DNA of 64,000 nucleotides from Alphaproteobacteria bacterium (lineage in GTDB: Bacteria; Pseudomonadota; Alphaproteobacteria; UBA8366; GCA-2717185): contig JBBDQU010000074.1 in assembly GCA_040905865.1 (NCBI GenBank), positions 124,001-188,000 on the forward strand, written 5' to 3'. Positions within the stretch are counted from its first letter, which is position 1. Each line of letters opens with the position of its first letter. Below the pieces are notes generated by a model. The model was given only the letters and a program-made list of their open reading frames with translations. It ran no database searches and was not told the DNA's origin. The position numbers and the translations under genes were made by a program. Shown here in pieces: positions 41,894 through 50,865 of the stretch.

Positions 41894-42022
41894 TACATAA
41901 AGTTTGTGGAAAACCCTTGAAGCCGGACAAGAAAGAGATAAATATGCATCTATATCTTGCTTCATGCCTCCCGACCTCATCGCAGGCACTCGCATGGAGC
42001 GACTACACAGGAGTACAGTTAT

Positions 42023-42925
42023 ATGGCCACCCTCCCTACCCTGGCGATTAGCCCCGAAGGGAACCTGCAGCGCTACCTCGAAAGCATCCGGGCGTTCCCG
42101 ATGTTGACGCAGGACGAGGAGTACATGCTGGCAAAGTCCTATCAGGACCATGACGATGTCGAAGCGGCGCACAAGATGGTGACCAGTCACTTACGGCTCG
42201 TTGCGAAGATTGCAATGGGTTACCGCGGCTATGGCCTGCCCATGAACGAGCTCATTTCTGAAGGCAATATCGGACTGATGCAGGCGGTGAAGCGGTTCGA
42301 CCCCGAACGCGGCTTTCGGCTGGCGACCTATGCGATGTGGTGGATCCGGGCATCAATCCAGGAATACATCCTGCATTCCTGGTCGCTGGTGAAGATCGGC
42401 ACCACGGCGTCCCAGAAGAAGCTCTTTTTCAACCTGCGCAAGCTGAAAGGCCGGTTGCAGGCCATCAACGACGGCGACATGACGCCGGAAGTCGTGAAGA
42501 AGATTTCCGAGGAACTGAACGTTCCCGAGATCGATGTCGTATCGATGAATCAGCGCATGGCAGGCGGCGATCATTCGCTGAACGCACCCCTGCGGGCCGA
42601 TAGCGACGGCGAATGGATGGACTGGCTGGAAGACGATACCGACAATCAGGAAACCGTTGTCGCCGAAACGCAGGAAATGGACAAGCGCCGCGATCTGCTT
42701 CAGAACGCGCTGGAAACCCTGAACGATCGGGAACGCTTCATCCTCAATGAACGGCGCCTCAAGGACGAGCCATCGACCCTTGAGGAACTGAGCCAAGTTT
42801 ATAATATCAGCCGCGAACGCGTCCGCCAGATCGAAGTCCGCGCTTTCGAAAAACTGCAGAAAGCAATCCGCAATGCGGCGGTCGAGCAGCAACTCGCGAT
42901 GGGCAGTCTCGCCGGGGCCAAGTAA
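42023..42925 (+). CDS. rpoH: RNA polymerase heat-shock sigma factor (sigma-32)
   Basis: The 300-residue sigma-70-family factor carries the RpoH box QKKLFFNLR (131-139), which distinguishes RpoH from RpoD. Region 2 runs from VTSHLRLVAKIAMGYRGYGL to RLATYAMWWIRASIQEYIL; region 4 is LEELSQVYNISRERVRQIEVRAFEKLQKAI. It directs transcription of chaperones and proteases. ATG 42023 is supported by AGGAG 9 nt upstream. An upstream ATG at 41957 would add 22 residues not expected for RpoH. The leader (41894-42022) contains TTGAAG at 41917-41922 followed by an AT-rich segment at 41938-41945, a possible promoter. A short hairpin (42930-42946) follows the stop. Confidence 0.96.
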   Translation: MATLPTLAISPEGNLQRYLESIRAFPMLTQDEEYMLAKSYQDHDDVEAAHKMVTSHLRLVAKIAMGYRGYGLPMNELISEGNIGLMQAVKRFDPERGFRLATYAMWWIRASIQEYILHSWSLVKIGTTASQKKLFFNLRKLKGRLQAINDGDMTPEVVKKISEELNVPEIDVVSMNQRMAGGDHSLNAPLRADSDGEWMDWLEDDTDNQETVVAETQEMDKRRDLLQNALETLNDRERFILNERRLKDEPSTLEELSQVYNISRERVRQIEVRAFEKLQKAIRNAAVEQQLAMGSLAGAK

Positions 42926-42994
42926 AGGGCGCCAATGAATTTGGCGGCGATCAGTCAGGATTGATGCGCCGCACCTTTTACCGCGTGCATTGGT

Positions 42995-43549
42995 CTACTC
43001 TGCCTTGGCCGGTGGCGGAGGTTTTTCGGCGTCATCCTGCTTTTCGGCCTCTGTATCGTCTTCCAGTTCCATCCCCATATCGCCATACCGGACATTTCGT
43101 CCCCAGGTCTCCACCAGTTCTTTCTGCCGCGCCTTGTACCGCGTTTCCTTCATCTCGAAGGAAACGGTCAGGTAGGATGCGACGACGGGCGGCGTCAGGT
43201 AGAGGATAATCCAGCCAACCGCCGCCGCCGAATACATCACTAGCAGCGAAAACGGGTTCGATATGATTTCGATCAGCCGGCTGAAATCCCAGAACCCGCT
43301 GTTTTTCCAAAGATCCAGCGTATACATCAGACAGCCCGCAAAATTGAGATAGCCAACCGTCCGCGACGTGTATTTCAGAGGATGCCGGTCCAGCAGCAAC
43401 AGGGCGACGATGGTCGGCGCCATGCCAACCATCAACAGAATCACCGTCGACGGCGCCAGCACGAATATCGCGGGCGCGATGACCCAGGCGAGCGCCGCGC
43501 CCTTCGCTTTTGCGCCGCCGGCGACGCCATTCCCGGGTTTCCTAGCCAT
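42995..43549 (-). CDS. Hypothetical membrane protein, partner of the kinase-like protein
   Basis: The 184-residue protein has three to four membrane segments: WVIAPAIFVLAPSTVILLMV, MAPTIVALLLL, AGCLMYTLDLW, and LLVMYSAAAVGWIILYLTPP. A charged cytoplasmic C-terminal region (YKARQKELVETWGRNVRYGD) ends in an acidic/proline stretch (EDDTEAEKQDDAEKPPPP). The N-terminus is basic (MARKPGNGVAGGAKAKG). No family is recognised. Its ATG sits 1 nt after the stop of the kinase-like gene, so it is cotranscribed with it. Confidence 0.78.
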   Translation of the reverse strand: MARKPGNGVAGGAKAKGAALAWVIAPAIFVLAPSTVILLMVGMAPTIVALLLLDRHPLKYTSRTVGYLNFAGCLMYTLDLWKNSGFWDFSRLIEIISNPFSLLVMYSAAAVGWIILYLTPPVVASYLTVSFEMKETRYKARQKELVETWGRNVRYGDMGMELEDDTEAEKQDDAEKPPPPAKAE

Positions 43550-43550
43550 C

Positions 43551-45554
43551 CTATGACGCCATTATAAATGTAAACAGGACAATGACCAGCAGCGAAACCG
43601 TCGTCAGCACCCCGGATATGACCGACGACACCTGGCCGCCAAGTTCACGGGCGATCGCCATCCGGTTGCGTTTGTCTGAATCCAGTTGCTCCAATCGTCT
43701 GGCGATGTCGCGGTATTCATGTGAGGCCCTTTCGAACCGGCGGTTATCGTCATCCAGAACCTGACTGTTGTCCGCGATCGCCAGCAGTTCCGACAGGCGT
43801 CCGGTCGCGCCCGCTTCCCGCATCGCACCGGAAATCCGTTCCCGCGTTTCGCGATTGTGGTAGCGCTTTATCGTCGGCGCCAGCATTTTAACGGCGAGTT
43901 GCCCCAGATTGGTATAGGGCTTGATCCGCGTATCGCGCTCCTGGATCTGGGACAGCAGACGGATACTGGCGAGTATCGGCAGGTTGGGGTCCGCCTGGTT
44001 GTCCAGGTCGCGCATTTCGGAGCCCCGCAGGCCGCTGAAATGCGTTGCGATATACGCCGCAAGATGCCTGTCGATGAGATAACGCACATCGTCCTGGTTG
44101 GCGGCCAGCCAATCGAGTGCCGGCAGGACGCTATTGATATCAAGGATATAGTATGCATCGACAAGGGGTGACTGACAGGCCAATCTCGGGTTGAGATCGT
44201 AAATGACCCGTTCGATACCCTCGCCGGAAGCCGTCCGCGCCATGACTTCGCGCGCCCGCTTCAGGTCGCGATACAGTGTCAACAGATCAATCCGTGGCCT
44301 CGGCTGGTTGTCTTCCCAGAATTCGATAAGTTCATATTGCAGAATCGCGGCGAAGGCGTTCCGGGTTTCGCCGCTCTCGCTGTAAAGCGCCATCATGTTG
44401 GGAATACCGTCGATAATGGCGCTGAAATCGCGATACCGGATCGGCGCGGCCGGATCCAGTGCGATACAGCAGCGGCCGATCAGGTTATCGTCCGTCGCCA
44501 TTGCTTCGGGAACATCTTTCGCCTCATTGAACGCGTTCACAACCGTGTCGTCACCCAGGGCGCGGCGAAGCCAGGTGTCCACCGACCCGTCACGGATAAT
44601 ATTGATCGATTTATTCCAGTTGCTGACCATGGTGTGGGCCAGTTCACGGCAGGTAAAATGTTCCTTGTTCATAAATGAATACGAACGGGCGGCGCGGCTC
44701 TGCATCGATTGCTGAACCGGGCTGCCCCGGTGTCCGTTCGACCACATGCCGACATCGTCAACCGTCCAGCGTTCGTCCGGGTCGTCCGTCAGCAATCCGC
44801 GCAGGGCCTCCATCATCGTCAGGGAAATCCGCGACGACTGGGTCAGCGCGCCATAGGACCCCATGCTGAGCTTGGCGTTCAGGATTTCCTGATCCGACAT
44901 GCCCCTGCAGGGACTGTGACCGATCATCAGCGCCAGGATCGTAACGCCCAGTTCGTACATGTCGTCGGCGGAACCGCCCATTCCCCGGCCCGCCGGATTG
45001 GCCATGCAGGCTTCGATGGGTTCATAGACGAAGGACTGCGCCATCGCCGGCGGCGATGAGATGCAGTCGCCAAGAATGAGCCTGCTTCCCCTGGCGCCGC
45101 CGAAATACAGGTTGTTGGGGCGGATAGCCCGGTGGGTAATGTCGAATTCGCGAAATTCGCGCAAAACCTGATTGGCCGGCTCGGCGAAGAACTTGATGAT
45201 CTCCTCTTCGCGCATCGGCTCGAAATCATCATCCAGCGACGCTGCGACGCGCCCTCCCGCGGGCGGTTCGTAAATGAGAACCGGGCAACGCCGGCCTTCC
45301 GGCGGCCAGTCCACCACGCCCCAGTCCAGCAACGCCATCAGATAGGGGATTTCGACCTTGCTCAACGAATTGATCATGTCCAGCCGGACCGGTAGCTTCG
45401 GATCGCAGACCAGCGCCATCAACTCACGGCTCGCATCGCGAAGATGCCGTACCTTGAACGCCATGGCAGGCGGATTGTCATATGTGCTTAGCGGTTCATC
45501 GACGGCGATTTCATATCGGTCCCGCAGACTGACCCGCTTCGGATTTTTCGCCAT
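43551..45554 (-). CDS. Membrane-anchored protein kinase-like protein lacking catalytic residues (pseudokinase)
   Basis: Residues about 30-275 of this 667-residue protein follow the eukaryotic-like kinase lobe pattern. THRAIRPNNLYF (140-151) corresponds to the catalytic loop HRDxKxxN, but A143 replaces the aspartate and R145 the lysine, while N148 remains. GDC (162-164) stands at the DFG position, and DDMYELGVTILALMIG (197-212) matches the F helix. No VAIK lysine is evident and the N-lobe glycine loop is weak. The rest (280-640) is helical and unrecognised. A C-terminal membrane anchor (VLTTVSLLVIVLFTFIMAS) ends the protein. It probably binds rather than phosphorylates. It is 176 nt downstream of purA and pairs with the membrane protein downstream. 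Confidence 0.75.
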   Translation of the reverse strand: MAKNPKRVSLRDRYEIAVDEPLSTYDNPPAMAFKVRHLRDASRELMALVCDPKLPVRLDMINSLSKVEIPYLMALLDWGVVDWPPEGRRCPVLIYEPPAGGRVAASLDDDFEPMREEEIIKFFAEPANQVLREFREFDITHRAIRPNNLYFGGARGSRLILGDCISSPPAMAQSFVYEPIEACMANPAGRGMGGSADDMYELGVTILALMIGHSPCRGMSDQEILNAKLSMGSYGALTQSSRISLTMMEALRGLLTDDPDERWTVDDVGMWSNGHRGSPVQQSMQSRAARSYSFMNKEHFTCRELAHTMVSNWNKSINIIRDGSVDTWLRRALGDDTVVNAFNEAKDVPEAMATDDNLIGRCCIALDPAAPIRYRDFSAIIDGIPNMMALYSESGETRNAFAAILQYELIEFWEDNQPRPRIDLLTLYRDLKRAREVMARTASGEGIERVIYDLNPRLACQSPLVDAYYILDINSVLPALDWLAANQDDVRYLIDRHLAAYIATHFSGLRGSEMRDLDNQADPNLPILASIRLLSQIQERDTRIKPYTNLGQLAVKMLAPTIKRYHNRETRERISGAMREAGATGRLSELLAIADNSQVLDDDNRRFERASHEYRDIARRLEQLDSDKRNRMAIARELGGQVSSVISGVLTTVSLLVIVLFTFIMAS

Positions 45555-45730
45555 ACCAGCAATTCCCAGCCATTACCGCCGCGTTGATGCGGCCACGCGG
45601 TTGGCAGGAAATATATACATCAAATGGTTAACGGAAGCCTTCGGGCCTGCGAAACTCGTTCGCGGCAACCGCGGGAAGAACTTTCATCCCTGTAAGGAAA
45701 TAACGTGAATTCAATAGCCTTGCACCCGAT

Positions 45731-47023
45731 TCAGGACGCAAAGGGATCCCGTACCATGATTGTATCGTCGCGTTCAGGACTGGTCGATAACAGCGTCACG
45801 GGAGCCTCGATAAGCTCTTCGATTCGCCGGATATACTTTATCGCCGTTGCGGGCAGGTCGGCCCAGGAACGGGCGCCTTCGGTGCTGTCCGCCCAGCCCT
45901 CCATCAATTCATAGACCGGTTCAGCCACAGCCTGCTTCGCCATGGAAGACGGCAGGTGGTCGAAAACCTTCCCGTCTATCCGGTAGCCGGTACAGATTCC
46001 AATTTCCTTGAGCCCGTCCAGCACATCCAGCTTGGTCAGCGCGATACCATCGATTCCACCGACCTTGATGGCCTGCCGCACCAGGACCGCATCAAACCAG
46101 CCGCAGCGTCGGCGCCGGCCCGTTACGGTCCCGAATTCATGCCCCCGCTCGCCCAGCAGGTTCCCGATTTCGTTCTTGAGTTCGGTCGGGAACGGCCCCG
46201 CGCCGACCCTGGTCGTATAGGCCTTGGTAATTCCAAGAACATATCCCAGTCCGCGTGGCGTGAACCCCGCGCCGGCGGCGGCCTGCCCCGCTACCGTATT
46301 GGAGGAGGTAACATAGGGAAACGTGCCGTGGTCGATGTCCAGCATGATGCCCTGGGCGCCCTCAAACAGGATGCGCTGACCGGCCTTGTTCGCCGCGTCA
46401 AGCACGCGCCACGCCGTCCCGACATAGGGCAGGATTTTCGGCGCGATCGCCAGCAACTCGCCCAGCAGGTCATCCGCATCGATTTCCGGTTCGCCGAAGC
46501 CCCGCAAAATCGCATTGTGGTGAAACAGCAGATGACGCAGCTTTTCCGCCAACACGTCACTGTCGGCCAGATCGCAGACACGGATCGCGCGCCGACCGAC
46601 CTTGTCCTCGTAGGCTGGTCCGATACCGCGGCCGGTCGTTCCGATCTGCGCATTGCCGCGGGCCGCTTCACGCGCATGATCCAGATTGCGATGCAACGGC
46701 AGGATCAGCGCAGCATTCTCCGCGACCATCAGCTTTTCGGGGCCAATCGCCACTCCGGCGACACGGATCCTGTCGATCTCATCCAGCAGCGCCCATGGAT
46801 CGACCACAACGCCATTGCCGATGATCGACAGCTTGCCATCCCGGACAACGCCGGAGGGCAGCAGGCTAAGCTTGTAGGTCTTGCCGTCGATAACCAGCGT
46901 ATGACCGGCATTATGGCCGCCCTGGAATCGCACGACCACATCGGCGCGCTCCGAAAGCCAGTCGACGATCTTGCCTTTACCCTCGTCGCCCCACTGCGAT
47001 CCCACGACCACGACATTCGTCAT
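45731..47023 (-). CDS. purA: Adenylosuccinate synthetase
   Basis: The 430-residue GTP-dependent enzyme catalyses the first step from IMP to AMP. It has the P-loop-like [16 protein letters not shown] at the start, and [20 protein letters not shown] (35-54). [18 protein letters not shown] and [20 protein letters not shown] follow, and the end-region [13 protein letters not shown] is present. Length is standard. Its ATG overlaps the hisZ stop by 4 nt, so the pair is translationally coupled. The 176 nt downstream, before the kinase-like gene, show no strong terminator. Confidence 0.97.
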
Positions 47024-48186
47024 TTCCCGTCCAATCCTTCGTCTGATTCGAGGACGACTACGCGGCCGTCAATGAAAATTTCCGTGCAACCCAGTCGCCG
47101 GGCTTCCCGTTCCGGTTCCACAACCGGCGCCAGGCCGGCAACCGCGACCCGCCCGTTTCCGCGCAGCGACGCCGCATCCCCGGGCGAGGTCCCGAAAGGC
47201 AGAAATACGCGGCCCGCCGCTTCGGGCGCGGCGACAGCGCGCAGAACGCTGTCGAGAAACAGGGTAAAGCCGGTCGCCGGCTCGCTAGCCGCACCTGCCC
47301 GGTAACGACCGCCGCTACCGATTTCCCCGCGAACGCCGCGCGCAAACAGCGTAAAGCTCAATCCCGTATGATATTCGAAGCCCCGGTGCTCAACAGGATC
47401 GACTGTCAGCATGACATCCGGCATCGCCTTCGATACCAGTTCGATTACGGCGCCAAGCCGGTCCCGCTCGATGATTGCGACGGGCAGCAGGTCCAGGGCA
47501 TCCAGCGCCGCCATCGCCTCGACAGCCGGTCCGGACGCATTCAGCAGCGCGGCAAACAGGACGGATGCCGGCCCGCCAACGGCTTCGACTTCCGCGATAT
47601 CCTTGCGGTCGAGCGCTGCCCGAAGCCGCTGCGCCACGGCCGGCGCAAGGTTCAGGGCACCGCACAGGGATGGCACCAGGGTCGGCAGGTTGATATCGAC
47701 GGAAACGTCACGGACCCCCACGCCCTGCAGGGCCGCCGCGGCCAGGCTGATGGTTTCCGCATCCGCGGTCGGCTCCGCCGATCCGATGAGTTCCGCACCC
47801 GCCTGCAGGAATTCCCGTTCGGGACGAAGCTGGCTGCCCCGCACCCGCAGCACCTGGCCGGAATACGCCAGTCGCAGCGGCCGCGGCGCACGCGCCAGGC
47901 GGGTCGTCGCGATGCGGGCGACCTGTTGCGTCATATCGGCACGGACCCCCATCATGCGCTGGCTGACGGGATCCATCAGGCGAAACGTGGCATTCGCGAT
48001 ACGCTGCGCCGCGCCGGCCAGCAGCGTGTCCTCAAATTCGACCAATGGCGGCGAAACGCGCATATATCCATAACGCGTGAAGGCCTCGACAAGGCGGTTT
48101 GCGATATCGGCCTCATGCGCTGCATCCGGCGGTAGTCCGTCCCGCAATCCGTCGGGCAGCAAGGCGTCCCTGCCTGCTTCGATCAT
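47020..48186 (-). CDS. hisZ: ATP phosphoribosyltransferase regulatory subunit
   Basis: The 388-residue paralog of histidyl-tRNA synthetase catalytic domain lacks the anticodon domain, as expected for HisZ. Class II motifs are [20 protein letters not shown] (motif 1), [17 protein letters not shown] (motif 2 area) and [13 protein letters not shown] (motif 3 area). It activates the short HisG in histidine synthesis; hisG is not in the window. I chose ATG 48186 because homologs begin near LLPDGLRD; an upstream frame from 48246 would add 20 residues. It is coupled to purA by ATGA. Confidence 0.92.
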
Positions 48187-48293: not shown

Positions 48294-49298
48294 CTATCGC
48301 CTGATGACGGTGACCGCGCCGTTGGCGAGACCGTATACGATTTCCGGTGTGCCGTTGCGATCGATATCTGCCATGACGATCGAGGTTGCGATCGGGCTGT
48401 CATGGGCAATCGACTGCACTTCGCGCGCCGAGCCGCCGGCAAAGGAAATGGCTACCAGCCTGCGGCGGTCGAGCGACGGAATGATGATGTCAGCAAGGCC
48501 ATCGGCATCGACATCCGCCACGGCATGCATGGCCAGAACCGTAGAGCCGATAAAATGATTGGCATATCCGTGTATCGACGCGACCGGCTCCAGAATACGC
48601 CCTATTCGCCGGAACAGGGTCAGCGTTCCGGACAGGTGCGGCGTCACAACCGATGCGATTTCGGTTTTTCCATCGCCATCGAAATCAGCCGCGCCGACAG
48701 GATTCTGCCAGCGATGCGACTGCCCGATGGGCCGGGACTCCGCCACCGGCTGTATGGCGCCCCCGACAACACCGAAAAGCGCCAGCGCCGCGCCGGCGTG
48801 AGGATATGATCGGACCACAAGTATCGTTTCCACGCCATCGACATTGACGATCCGTGGCTCAAGGTCCTCGAAAACGGATTCGTCGGGGAGCCGGTATGTC
48901 GCCTCGCGCCCGTTCGCAAACGCAACCTGCAATGCGGTCGCTTCGATTGGGTCGCCCAGGACGCCATGGCGGTAACGGTTTGTCGGGCCGGTCAGCCAGG
49001 TTCCGGCCACCGCGCCGTGCCCCGACGCGACACGGCCCTGCGGAATGATGTTGGCGGGGACTGTCTCATTCGATGTTTTCAGCGGCGACACCAGAAACAG
49101 CCCGCGTGGCAGGGATAATCTGAAACGCCGGTCGCCGGTGTGCAGGATGACGCGGTCCTTTCCAGACGACAGCGTGATATCCCTCAGGTCGTCAATATGC
49201 GTCGCCGTTTCCGCCTTCCAGCCCGTCTCCTGCGCCGCTGCCGTGGCGGCAATCGCGGCAAACAGCAGGATCGCCGGAATTGCGGATTTAGAATGCAA
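48294..49298 (-). CDS. Exported FG-GAP/VCBS-type repeat protein
   Basis: The protein of about 334 residues has a signal peptide (SKSAIPAILLFAAIAATAAAQ). It contains at least three Asp-rich calcium-binding-like repeats of FG-GAP type: DFDGDGKTEIASV, DVDADGLADIIIPS and DIDRNGTPEIVYG. These are typical of beta-propeller or VCBS domains that bind Ca2+. It likely acts in the periplasm or outside the cell; the role is unknown. I propose a TTG start at 49298, overlapping the end of serA by 11 nt, because it places the signal peptide at the N-terminus. An ATG at 49358 would add a basic stretch inside serA. It is coupled to serA. Confidence 0.72.
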   Translation of the reverse strand: MHSKSAIPAILLFAAIAATAAAQETGWKAETATHIDDLRDITLSSGKDRVILHTGDRRFRLSLPRGLFLVSPLKTSNETVPANIIPQGRVASGHGAVAGTWLTGPTNRYRHGVLGDPIEATALQVAFANGREATYRLPDESVFEDLEPRIVNVDGVETILVVRSYPHAGAALALFGVVGGAIQPVAESRPIGQSHRWQNPVGAADFDGDGKTEIASVVTPHLSGTLTLFRRIGRILEPVASIHGYANHFIGSTVLAMHAVADVDADGLADIIIPSLDRRRLVAISFAGGSAREVQSIAHDSPIATSIVMADIDRNGTPEIVYGLANGAVTVIRR

Positions 49299-50865
49299 GC
49301 TGCTTGACCTGGAAGATATTCGGCAGCCTGGACACCGCATCCACGACCGCCGCGTCAAGCGGCTGGTCGATCTGCAACAGCGCTATGGCGTCATTACCCT
49401 GGCTGGCGCGGCCCAGATGGAATGTCGCGATGTTCACCCCGGCATCGCCTAGTGTCCTGCCCAGATTGCCGATGACGCCGGGCGTGTCCTTGTTGGTGAT
49501 ATACAGCATATATGGCGACATCTCGGCCTCGATATCGATGCCTTTGATGTTGACGATCCGCGCCCGCGAACCGCTGAACAGGGTGCCGGTGACGCTGCGC
49601 TCCTGCCGTTCGGTCGTTACGGTGATGCGAATCATCGTCTCGTAATCGCCGTGCTGCTCGTCCTTCGATTCCGTGACGCGGATATTGCGTTCGCGGGCAA
49701 TCGACGGGGCGCTGACCATGTTGACGGCATCCAGCATGGGCCGTAGCAGGCCCGTCAGCGCCGCCGCCATCAGGGGGCGGGTATTGAGCGTCGCCACATG
49801 GCCCCGAAATTCAATTGTTACCGCCGAAATTCCCGTTTCAGTGAGTTGCCCCGCGAAGCTGCCGAGATGTTCCGCGAGCGCCATATAGGGGCGCAGCCGC
49901 GGCGCTTCATCGGCGGTCACCGACGGCATGTTGATGGCGTTGGTCACGGCGCCCGTCAGCAGGTAGTCGGACATCTGCTCCGCCACCTGGATGGCGACGT
50001 TTTCCTGCGCCTCGGTTGTTGCCGCGCCGAGATGGGGCGTGCAGACCACATTATCGCGGCCGAACAGGATGTTTTCCCTCGCCGGTTCCTTGACGAACAC
50101 GTCGAATCCGGCGCCGGCGACATGGCCGGAATCAAGCGCCGCCGCAAGGTCTTCCTCGACCACCAGCCCGCCGCGGGCGCAGTTGATGATGTAGACGCCC
50201 TTCTTTGTTTTGGCGAGCGCCCCGGCGTCGATGATGCCGCGGGTGCTGTCGGTCAGCGGCGCGTGCAGGGTGATGAAGTCCGACCGGGCAAGCAGGTCGT
50301 CCAGTTCGAGTTTTTCGATGGACAGGTCGGCCGCGCGTTCCGGCGTCAGGTAGGGATCATAGGCGACGACCCGCATATGCAGCCCGCGCGCCCGGTCCGC
50401 GACAATGGAGCCGATATTGCCGCAGCCGATCAGCCCCAGCGTCTTGCCCGTCAATTCGGCGCCCATGAAGCGGGATTTCTCCCACTTGCCCGCCTGGGTC
50501 GAGGCATTTGCCGCGGTAATCTGGCGTGCCAGGGCAAACATCATGCCGATTGCGTGCTCGGCTGTCGTCGTCGCGTTGCCGAAGGGCGTGTTCATGACGA
50601 CGACGCCTTTCTGCGTCGCCTGCGGCACATCGATATTGTCGACGCCAATTCCTGCCCTGCCGACAACTTTCAGCTTCGCCGCGGCATCAAGAACAGCCGC
50701 CGTTACTTTCGTGGCTGACCGGACGGCAAGTCCGTCAAATTCACCGATACATGCGATCAATTCGTCCGGCGACATGCCGACCTTAACGTCGACGTCGATC
50801 CCGTTCTTCTTGAATACCGCCTCGGCGTTGGCGCTAAGCTCATCCGCAATCAAAACTCTGGTCAT
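49288..50865 (-). CDS. serA: D-3-phosphoglycerate dehydrogenase
   Basis: The 525-residue NAD-dependent enzyme starts serine synthesis. It has the nucleotide loop LGLIGCGNIGSIVADRARGL (about 148-167), catalytic arginine and histidine regions NCARGGLVVEEDL and CTPHLGAATTEAQENVA, and a C-terminal ACT domain (YITNKDTPGVIGNLGRTLG). The long type I form with the intervening domain is seen. ATG 50865 (MTRVLIADEL) fits homologs; the frame upstream adds a short basic tag. It follows serC by 16 nt, and the exported repeat protein overlaps its end. Confidence 0.95.
   Translation of the reverse strand: MTRVLIADELSANAEAVFKKNGIDVDVKVGMSPDELIACIGEFDGLAVRSATKVTAAVLDAAAKLKVVGRAGIGVDNIDVPQATQKGVVVMNTPFGNATTTAEHAIGMMFALARQITAANASTQAGKWEKSRFMGAELTGKTLGLIGCGNIGSIVADRARGLHMRVVAYDPYLTPERAADLSIEKLELDDLLARSDFITLHAPLTDSTRGIIDAGALAKTKKGVYIINCARGGLVVEEDLAAALDSGHVAGAGFDVFVKEPARENILFGRDNVVCTPHLGAATTEAQENVAIQVAEQMSDYLLTGAVTNAINMPSVTADEAPRLRPYMALAEHLGSFAGQLTETGISAVTIEFRGHVATLNTRPLMAAALTGLLRPMLDAVNMVSAPSIARERNIRVTESKDEQHGDYETMIRITVTTERQERSVTGTLFSGSRARIVNIKGIDIEAEMSPYMLYITNKDTPGVIGNLGRTLGDAGVNIATFHLGRASQGNDAIALLQIDQPLDAAVVDAVSRLPNIFQVKQLAF

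Follow-up and report, generated by a model that had tools for sequence, protein, structure and literature searches.

The locus described here raises the question of what a kinase-like protein does once its catalytic residues are gone and its host encodes no active kinase of the same type. Bacterial pseudokinases have hardly been explored with regard to function (PMC12599244). The protein in question, here called K, is encoded in the window, the whole stretch of 64,000 nucleotides that was analysed, and is single-copy in the surrounding 4.37-Mb alphaproteobacterial genome. K is found in about one third of the sampled Alphaproteobacteria, is paired with one membrane protein, here called M, and usually has no same-type active kinase to regulate. 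Together K and M look like an ancient membrane complex, and the pair turns "what does a pseudokinase do alone" into a two-gene knock-out question that can be put to culturable strains such as Azospirillum.

Organization and genomic context of the locus

The open reading frames are as claimed in an earlier reading made from the DNA letters alone (the sequence-only reading), with K 667 residues long and the ATG of M 1 nt past the K stop codon (Table 1). A frequent synteny of K loci is purA-hisZ-K-M-rpoH; hisZ, which lies upstream of K and shares its strand, is present in 46 of the 92 K loci with flanks. This setting looks like an old chromosomal site with vertical inheritance. A viral origin was rejected, a single scan over viral contigs having found no relative. 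Housekeeping neighbours alone give away no function for K. A promoter and terminator scan of positions 42800-47100 remained at chance level. Between hisZ and serA, the window also encodes a putative small secreted protein (48294-49358) with repeats that may be of VCBS/FG-GAP type.

Table 1. Features of the K-M locus. Positions are those of the window and residues are those of K.
Feature	Position	Strand	Basis
K: 667-aa tail-anchored pseudokinase	43551..45554	-	ORF; AF2 model; homologs in class genomes
Pseudokinase domain, residues 5-275	44730..45542	-	PDB sequence profile; VIA-align
Former VAIK site, residues 47-50 (A-L-V-C, no Lys)	45405..45416	-	122-homolog alignment
Pseudo-catalytic loop HRAIRPNN, residues 141-148	45111..45134	-	122-homolog alignment
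DFG-equivalent G-D-C, residues 162-164	45063..45071	-	122-homolog alignment
Post-kinase repeat region, residues 286-440 (motifs GxxxxWL...LDPxxPI)	44235..44699	-	Common to K, L164/L165 and L167
Family-specific C-terminal domain, residues 441-596	43767..44234	-	No match in active kinases; no recurrent Pfam family in 57 members; no convincing PDB structure
GxGxER..Y...NP...C.SP motif, residues 444-463 (Y452, C460, S462)	44166..44225	-	Conservation
D495-R496-H497 motif	44064..44072	-	D 147/151, R 122/151, H 137/151
Long helix, residues 597-638 (D603 149/151)	43641..43766	-	AF2 secondary structure; conservation
C-terminal transmembrane anchor, residues 643-666	43557..43628	-	AF2 helix (low-confidence region); hydrophobic C terminus in relatives
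M: 184-aa small multi-pass membrane protein, cytosolic-looking C-terminal helix	42995..43549	-	ORF; conserved family; AF2
purA, upstream neighbour (context)	45731..47023	-	Found in 56/92 K loci with flanks
rpoH-like sigma factor gene, downstream, convergent neighbour (context)	41957..42925	+	Homolog in 46/92 K loci with flanks

K has a predicted kinase fold and a conserved pseudo-active site

As a single sequence, K matches Pfam Pkinase with E=6e-5 and 22.9 bits, which does not reach the curated PF00069 gathering score of 31.7, and MAPKAPK3 with E=2e-7; a family profile of 30 relatives finds MAPKAPK2 in the PDB with E=1e-12. The AF2 model of K (pLDDT 85.5, pTM 0.81), whose input was taken from the window and related loci and left out the relatives from the class genome search, agrees in VIA-align with WNK3 (5o21_A) over 252 residues of the segment 3-274 (Z 23.7, rmsd 2.6 A) and with PknA and PknB (Z 22-23), while Foldseek matches it to kinases with E 8e-9. 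The N-terminal part of K is accordingly predicted by the model to have a kinase fold, and not the non-kinase structure that the sequence-only reading had named as evidence against itself.

The catalytic-loop sequence THRAIRPNNLYF is confirmed in K. It retains H141 and N148 and carries, as had been read from the letters, A143 for the catalytic Asp and R145 for the loop Lys; the VAIK Lys is equally missing from A47-L-V-C50. Conservation was followed in 122 full-length alphaproteobacterial relatives, drawn from 385 class genomes and from named records (Azospirillum, Ferruginivarius, unclassified Rhodospirillales and other alphaproteobacterial MAGs). Lys occurs at position 50 in 0 and at position 49 in 2 of these 122, and no conserved Lys was found among the N-lobe sites of the family. 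The catalytic position is Ala in 58 relatives and otherwise Ser, Gly, Asn and others, with Asp once, in a protein (L025, HGDIRPTN) without loop Lys, beta3 Lys or DFG. Homologs with both an intact HRD and the Lys, which would have spoken for a diverged active kinase, number 0 in the orthologous family; kinases that combine an intact HRD with the kinase-plus-repeat layout were found only among distant relatives from outside the class.

What replaces the catalytic motifs is itself strongly conserved, at H141 (111/122), I144, R145 (98/122), N148 (117/122) and G162 (118/122), giving a family consensus of H-[RG]-x-I-R-x-x-N and G-[DE]-C. Position 163 is Glu in 65, Asp in 42, Gln in 8 and Pro in 7 relatives, and Cys follows at 164 in 94 of the 122. 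Against near relatives, K shows a dN/dS of about 0.05-0.16 and M one of 0.16. Since the pseudo-active site is conserved under purifying selection despite the lost catalytic residues, these changes do not reflect decay, and the site appears to be retained for a purpose different from ordinary phosphotransfer. Judged by these motifs, K and its whole family are predicted to be pseudokinases, and the label "serine/threonine protein kinase" which public records give to such proteins is misleading. The K gene of one 74%-identical MAG relative contains an in-frame TGA (L002:7087-7089), either a sequencing error or a recent break.

Repeats in common with active kinases, and a family-specific domain

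About 360 residues following the kinase-like part had been described as unrecognised. This does not hold for their first half, a repeat region also found in active kinases, and does hold for the remainder, a domain specific to the family. The repeat region matches that of the active kinases L164/L165 and that of L167. Taken by itself it is moderately supported, with E near 1e-8 against a small database and single stretches being weak, and the internal repeat comparison in K is weak as well (hhalign E 0.0015, probability 17%). L164, L165 and L166, all from other classes, are kinases with intact HRDIKPGN and DFG, followed by a repeat region as in K; L167 is kinase-like, includes DUF4011 and AAA_11 domains and bears a K-type repeat region. 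In the three active kinases (L164:3424-5487, L165:931-3330 and L166:2660-5380) several GxxxxWL...LxPxxP repeats can be seen, on which Pfam is silent. Because the region is common to K and to active kinases, K appears to descend from a kinase-plus-repeat architecture whose active form is extant outside the class.

Residues 441-640 were found in the K family only, and the domain 441-596 has no match in the active kinases. A Pfam search with the C-terminal regions of 57 members gave no recurring family. When residues 285-667 were searched as a profile against the PDB, only designed repeat proteins and coiled coils came back, with no convincing match; the matches in the VIA list are those of the kinase domain. 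Among 151 family sequences, the set used for motif counts in this domain, Y452 (151/151), C460 (150/151) and S462 (146/151) are some of the most conserved sites of K. The C-terminal anchor of the sequence-only reading is borne out by a hydrophobic C-terminal segment in 112 of 122 relatives, which supports helix 643-666 as a tail anchor.

K and M behave as a pair

Among the 385 class genomes, a K homolog is present in 131, M in 130 and both in 129. Both of the K-only genomes have a weak M beside K (L126, L147), and in the one M-only genome M lies at a contig end. M is directly downstream of K for 115 of 121 K copies. Tandems of the form K-M-K-M occur at L082 (genome G355) and L113 (genome G133); in G133 both genes are present three times. 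Two genomes have K and M unlinked yet retain both (L128/L172, L131/L173). In a phylum-wide sample, full-length K and M are restricted to Alphaproteobacteria, and all 15 genomes with M carry K. Even near-complete genomes as small as 1.4-2 Mb have retained K. The distances among K proteins and those among M proteins, compared for 55 loci, show a correlation of 0.70, and one of 0.64 as a partial correlation with purA distances removed (0 of 999 permutations); by this measure the two proteins appear to co-evolve beyond species history.

Co-occurrence, adjacency, joint duplication and co-evolution give good support to the interpretation that K and M act as a single functional unit. Of the earlier proposal, the pairing of the two products stands, as do the pseudokinase and the membrane anchor; physical binding and a role in signalling or as a scaffold are inferences. 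Some copies occur singly. Second K copies without M are found at L129, L134 and L139, and extra M copies without an adjacent K at L169, L170, L171 (genome G014) and L174 (G147), so that M would not be solely a partner of K. At L170 and L174 the extra M precedes a Ysc84/SYLF lipid-binding gene, and at L171 it follows a histidine kinase and a response regulator.

M is multi-pass, as had been proposed, with about 3-4 hydrophobic segments; the acidic-proline tail ascribed to it is present but is not conserved. Its AF2 model, of moderate confidence (pLDDT 74), is all-helical with a charged C-terminal helix, and a fold search with this model against known structures reached a best Foldseek E of 0.69 and a best Z of 5.3. 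No match to known families, including those of transporters or channels, was obtained. Assignment to EMC3/TMCO1 (Oxa1 superfamily), which calls for a score over the curated cut-off and for a core of three TM segments that includes a coiled coil, was rejected: the match is partial, at 15.7 bits versus 27.1, and is seen in 2 of 13 members.

Absence of a partner kinase

No Pkinase match in the host genome exceeds the cut-off, that of K itself being sub-threshold; there is one FHA match, and no PP2C_2 was found. Among the matches listed, a kinase match of at least 60 bits is present in 36 of 131 K-bearing genomes versus 50 of 254 without K, an association that is not significant. As most K-bearing genomes have no active kinase of the same type, K appears to be independent of one and is not in general its regulator. 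In one genome of 1.9 Mb (G146), four ORFs encode kinases, each ORF being about 1755-1759 codons long.

Possible roles of K

We consider it fairly probable that K serves as a scaffold without catalytic activity, held by its tail anchor at the inner membrane, where it works with M. The pseudokinase domain, the helical repeats and the C-terminal domain, probably all cytosolic, would dock a partner or ligand; helix 643-666 would anchor K in the membrane, and K would act with the multi-pass M as a unit. Several observations count against such a scaffold. Conserved Y452, C460, D495 and H497 in the C-terminal domain could perhaps be enzymatic, the preserved pseudo-active site (N148, D/E163, R145) could allow nucleotide or metal binding, and co-evolution is not equal to contact. 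The near-invariance of these four C-terminal residues and the conserved non-canonical pocket residues would also suit a non-kinase enzyme, with the pocket performing another transfer or the C-terminal domain being active. SelO, whose pseudokinase pocket performs AMPylation, and SidJ are precedents (PMC12599244). Such an enzyme nevertheless seems unlikely, given the lack of a conserved N-lobe Lys for holding ATP, the variation of position 163 between Glu, Asp, Gln and Pro, and a C-terminal domain that matches no known enzyme family and whose conserved residues could be structural. The roles might also be reversed: M, as a channel, transporter or assembly factor, would be the effector, regulated by K as its cytosolic subunit. 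M is multi-pass and conserved, and in a few genomes stands alone, beside the Ysc84/SYLF gene or behind the two-component genes, where it may have its own function; yet it matches no known transporter or channel family or fold, and 160-180 residues with 3-4 hydrophobic segments equally suit a docking adaptor, and we rate this arrangement as rather improbable.

That K is a diverged and still active protein kinase is very hard to maintain. The catalytic-loop Asn is kept in 117 of 122 relatives and Asp or Glu occupies the DFG Asp position in 107, and WNK kinases are a precedent for a shift in the position of the Lys; the catalytic base Asp, however, is missing in 121 of 122, and another residue, in most cases Arg, stands in for the loop Lys. 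A WNK-type relocation was rejected for K, as the family has no conserved N-lobe Lys and the HRD Asp is absent. Assignment to the active Ser/Thr kinases of PF00069 was likewise rejected: K has the fold, but the VAIK Lys, the HRD Asp and the DFG motif are absent family-wide. A functionless kinase gene in decay, to which the score below the Pfam gathering threshold and the in-frame stop of the MAG relative could point, has a negligible probability and was rejected, considering the class-wide conservation of the motif set, the purifying selection seen in dN/dS and the retention in small near-complete genomes.

A more far-reaching form of the scaffold proposal, which we offer only tentatively, is that the K family is an unnamed, class-wide pseudokinase family. 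Its kinase fold, with no active kinase to pair with, would have been captured as the cytosolic portion of an ancient inner-membrane complex that consists of two proteins and fulfils a core housekeeping role; the C-terminal domain (Tyr, Cys, Asp and His near-invariant) might have a new activity.

Comparison with known systems

None of the families in Pfam, NCBIfam and PADLOC, or of the published pseudokinase families that could be checked, fits K, and no literature on the K family was found. Kwon et al. 2019 reportedly named a pseudokinase family "HGA-Pseudo", which may be the K family, as we presume from the HGA or HRA of many K members. Were the two identical, the sequence family would already be named, but not, as far as we can tell, its pairing with M, its descent from a repeat-bearing kinase or its C-terminal domain, which would seem new. 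A defence kinase was rejected: matches to MADS6, PD-T4-6 and LanL in PADLOC/NCBIfam are far below the cut-offs and cover the kinase domain alone, and the synteny is housekeeping.

A 2025 review of bacterial pseudokinases lists ActPs1-3, GLW, CP1, DYD and DLHK, plus EssB, SidJ and SelO (PMC12599244). GLW pseudokinases, found mainly in proteobacteria, have GLW for HRD and poly-Leu at beta3 (PMC12599244), whereas the K family has H[RG]x, never GLW, and A-L-[VI]-C; K lacks the defining motifs and was rejected as a member. DLHK kinase-helicases share with K an HRxxRP-type loop, in which Arg takes the place of Lys, but retain the catalytic Asp, have helicase domains and lack a transmembrane region (PMC12599244). 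Their likeness to K extends to the repeats behind the kinase part, as in L167 with its DUF4011 and AAA_11 domains; K, with no HRD Asp, no helicase domains and a transmembrane anchor, was rejected here too. The active kinases L164, L165 and L166 resemble K in having a kinase domain followed by GxxxxWL...LxPxxP repeats, and L166 also has C-terminal hydrophobic segments; they differ in their intact HRDIKPGN and DFG, in lacking the family-specific C-terminal domain and in occurring outside the class.

Two further systems are membrane-linked. The pseudokinase domain of MviN (ActPs3) is non-catalytic and membrane-linked like K, and recruits FhaA once phosphorylated by PknB (PMC12599244), whereas no intact kinase of this type that could do so was found in the genome carrying K; K, unlike MviN, keeps the H-x-x-I-R-x-x-N loop and has no MviN domain. 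EssB/YukC, the transmembrane pseudokinase of T7SSb, has like K a pseudokinase domain, has lost all catalytic motifs and has a single transmembrane segment (PMC12599244). It is a scaffold working with other membrane proteins (PMC12599244), a role that K may share. The recurrent neighbours of K are purA, hisZ and rpoH, with no T7SS gene among them. K differs from EssB/YukC in its restriction to Alphaproteobacteria, its long repeat region and C-terminal domain, its tail anchor at the extreme C terminus and its dedicated partner M.
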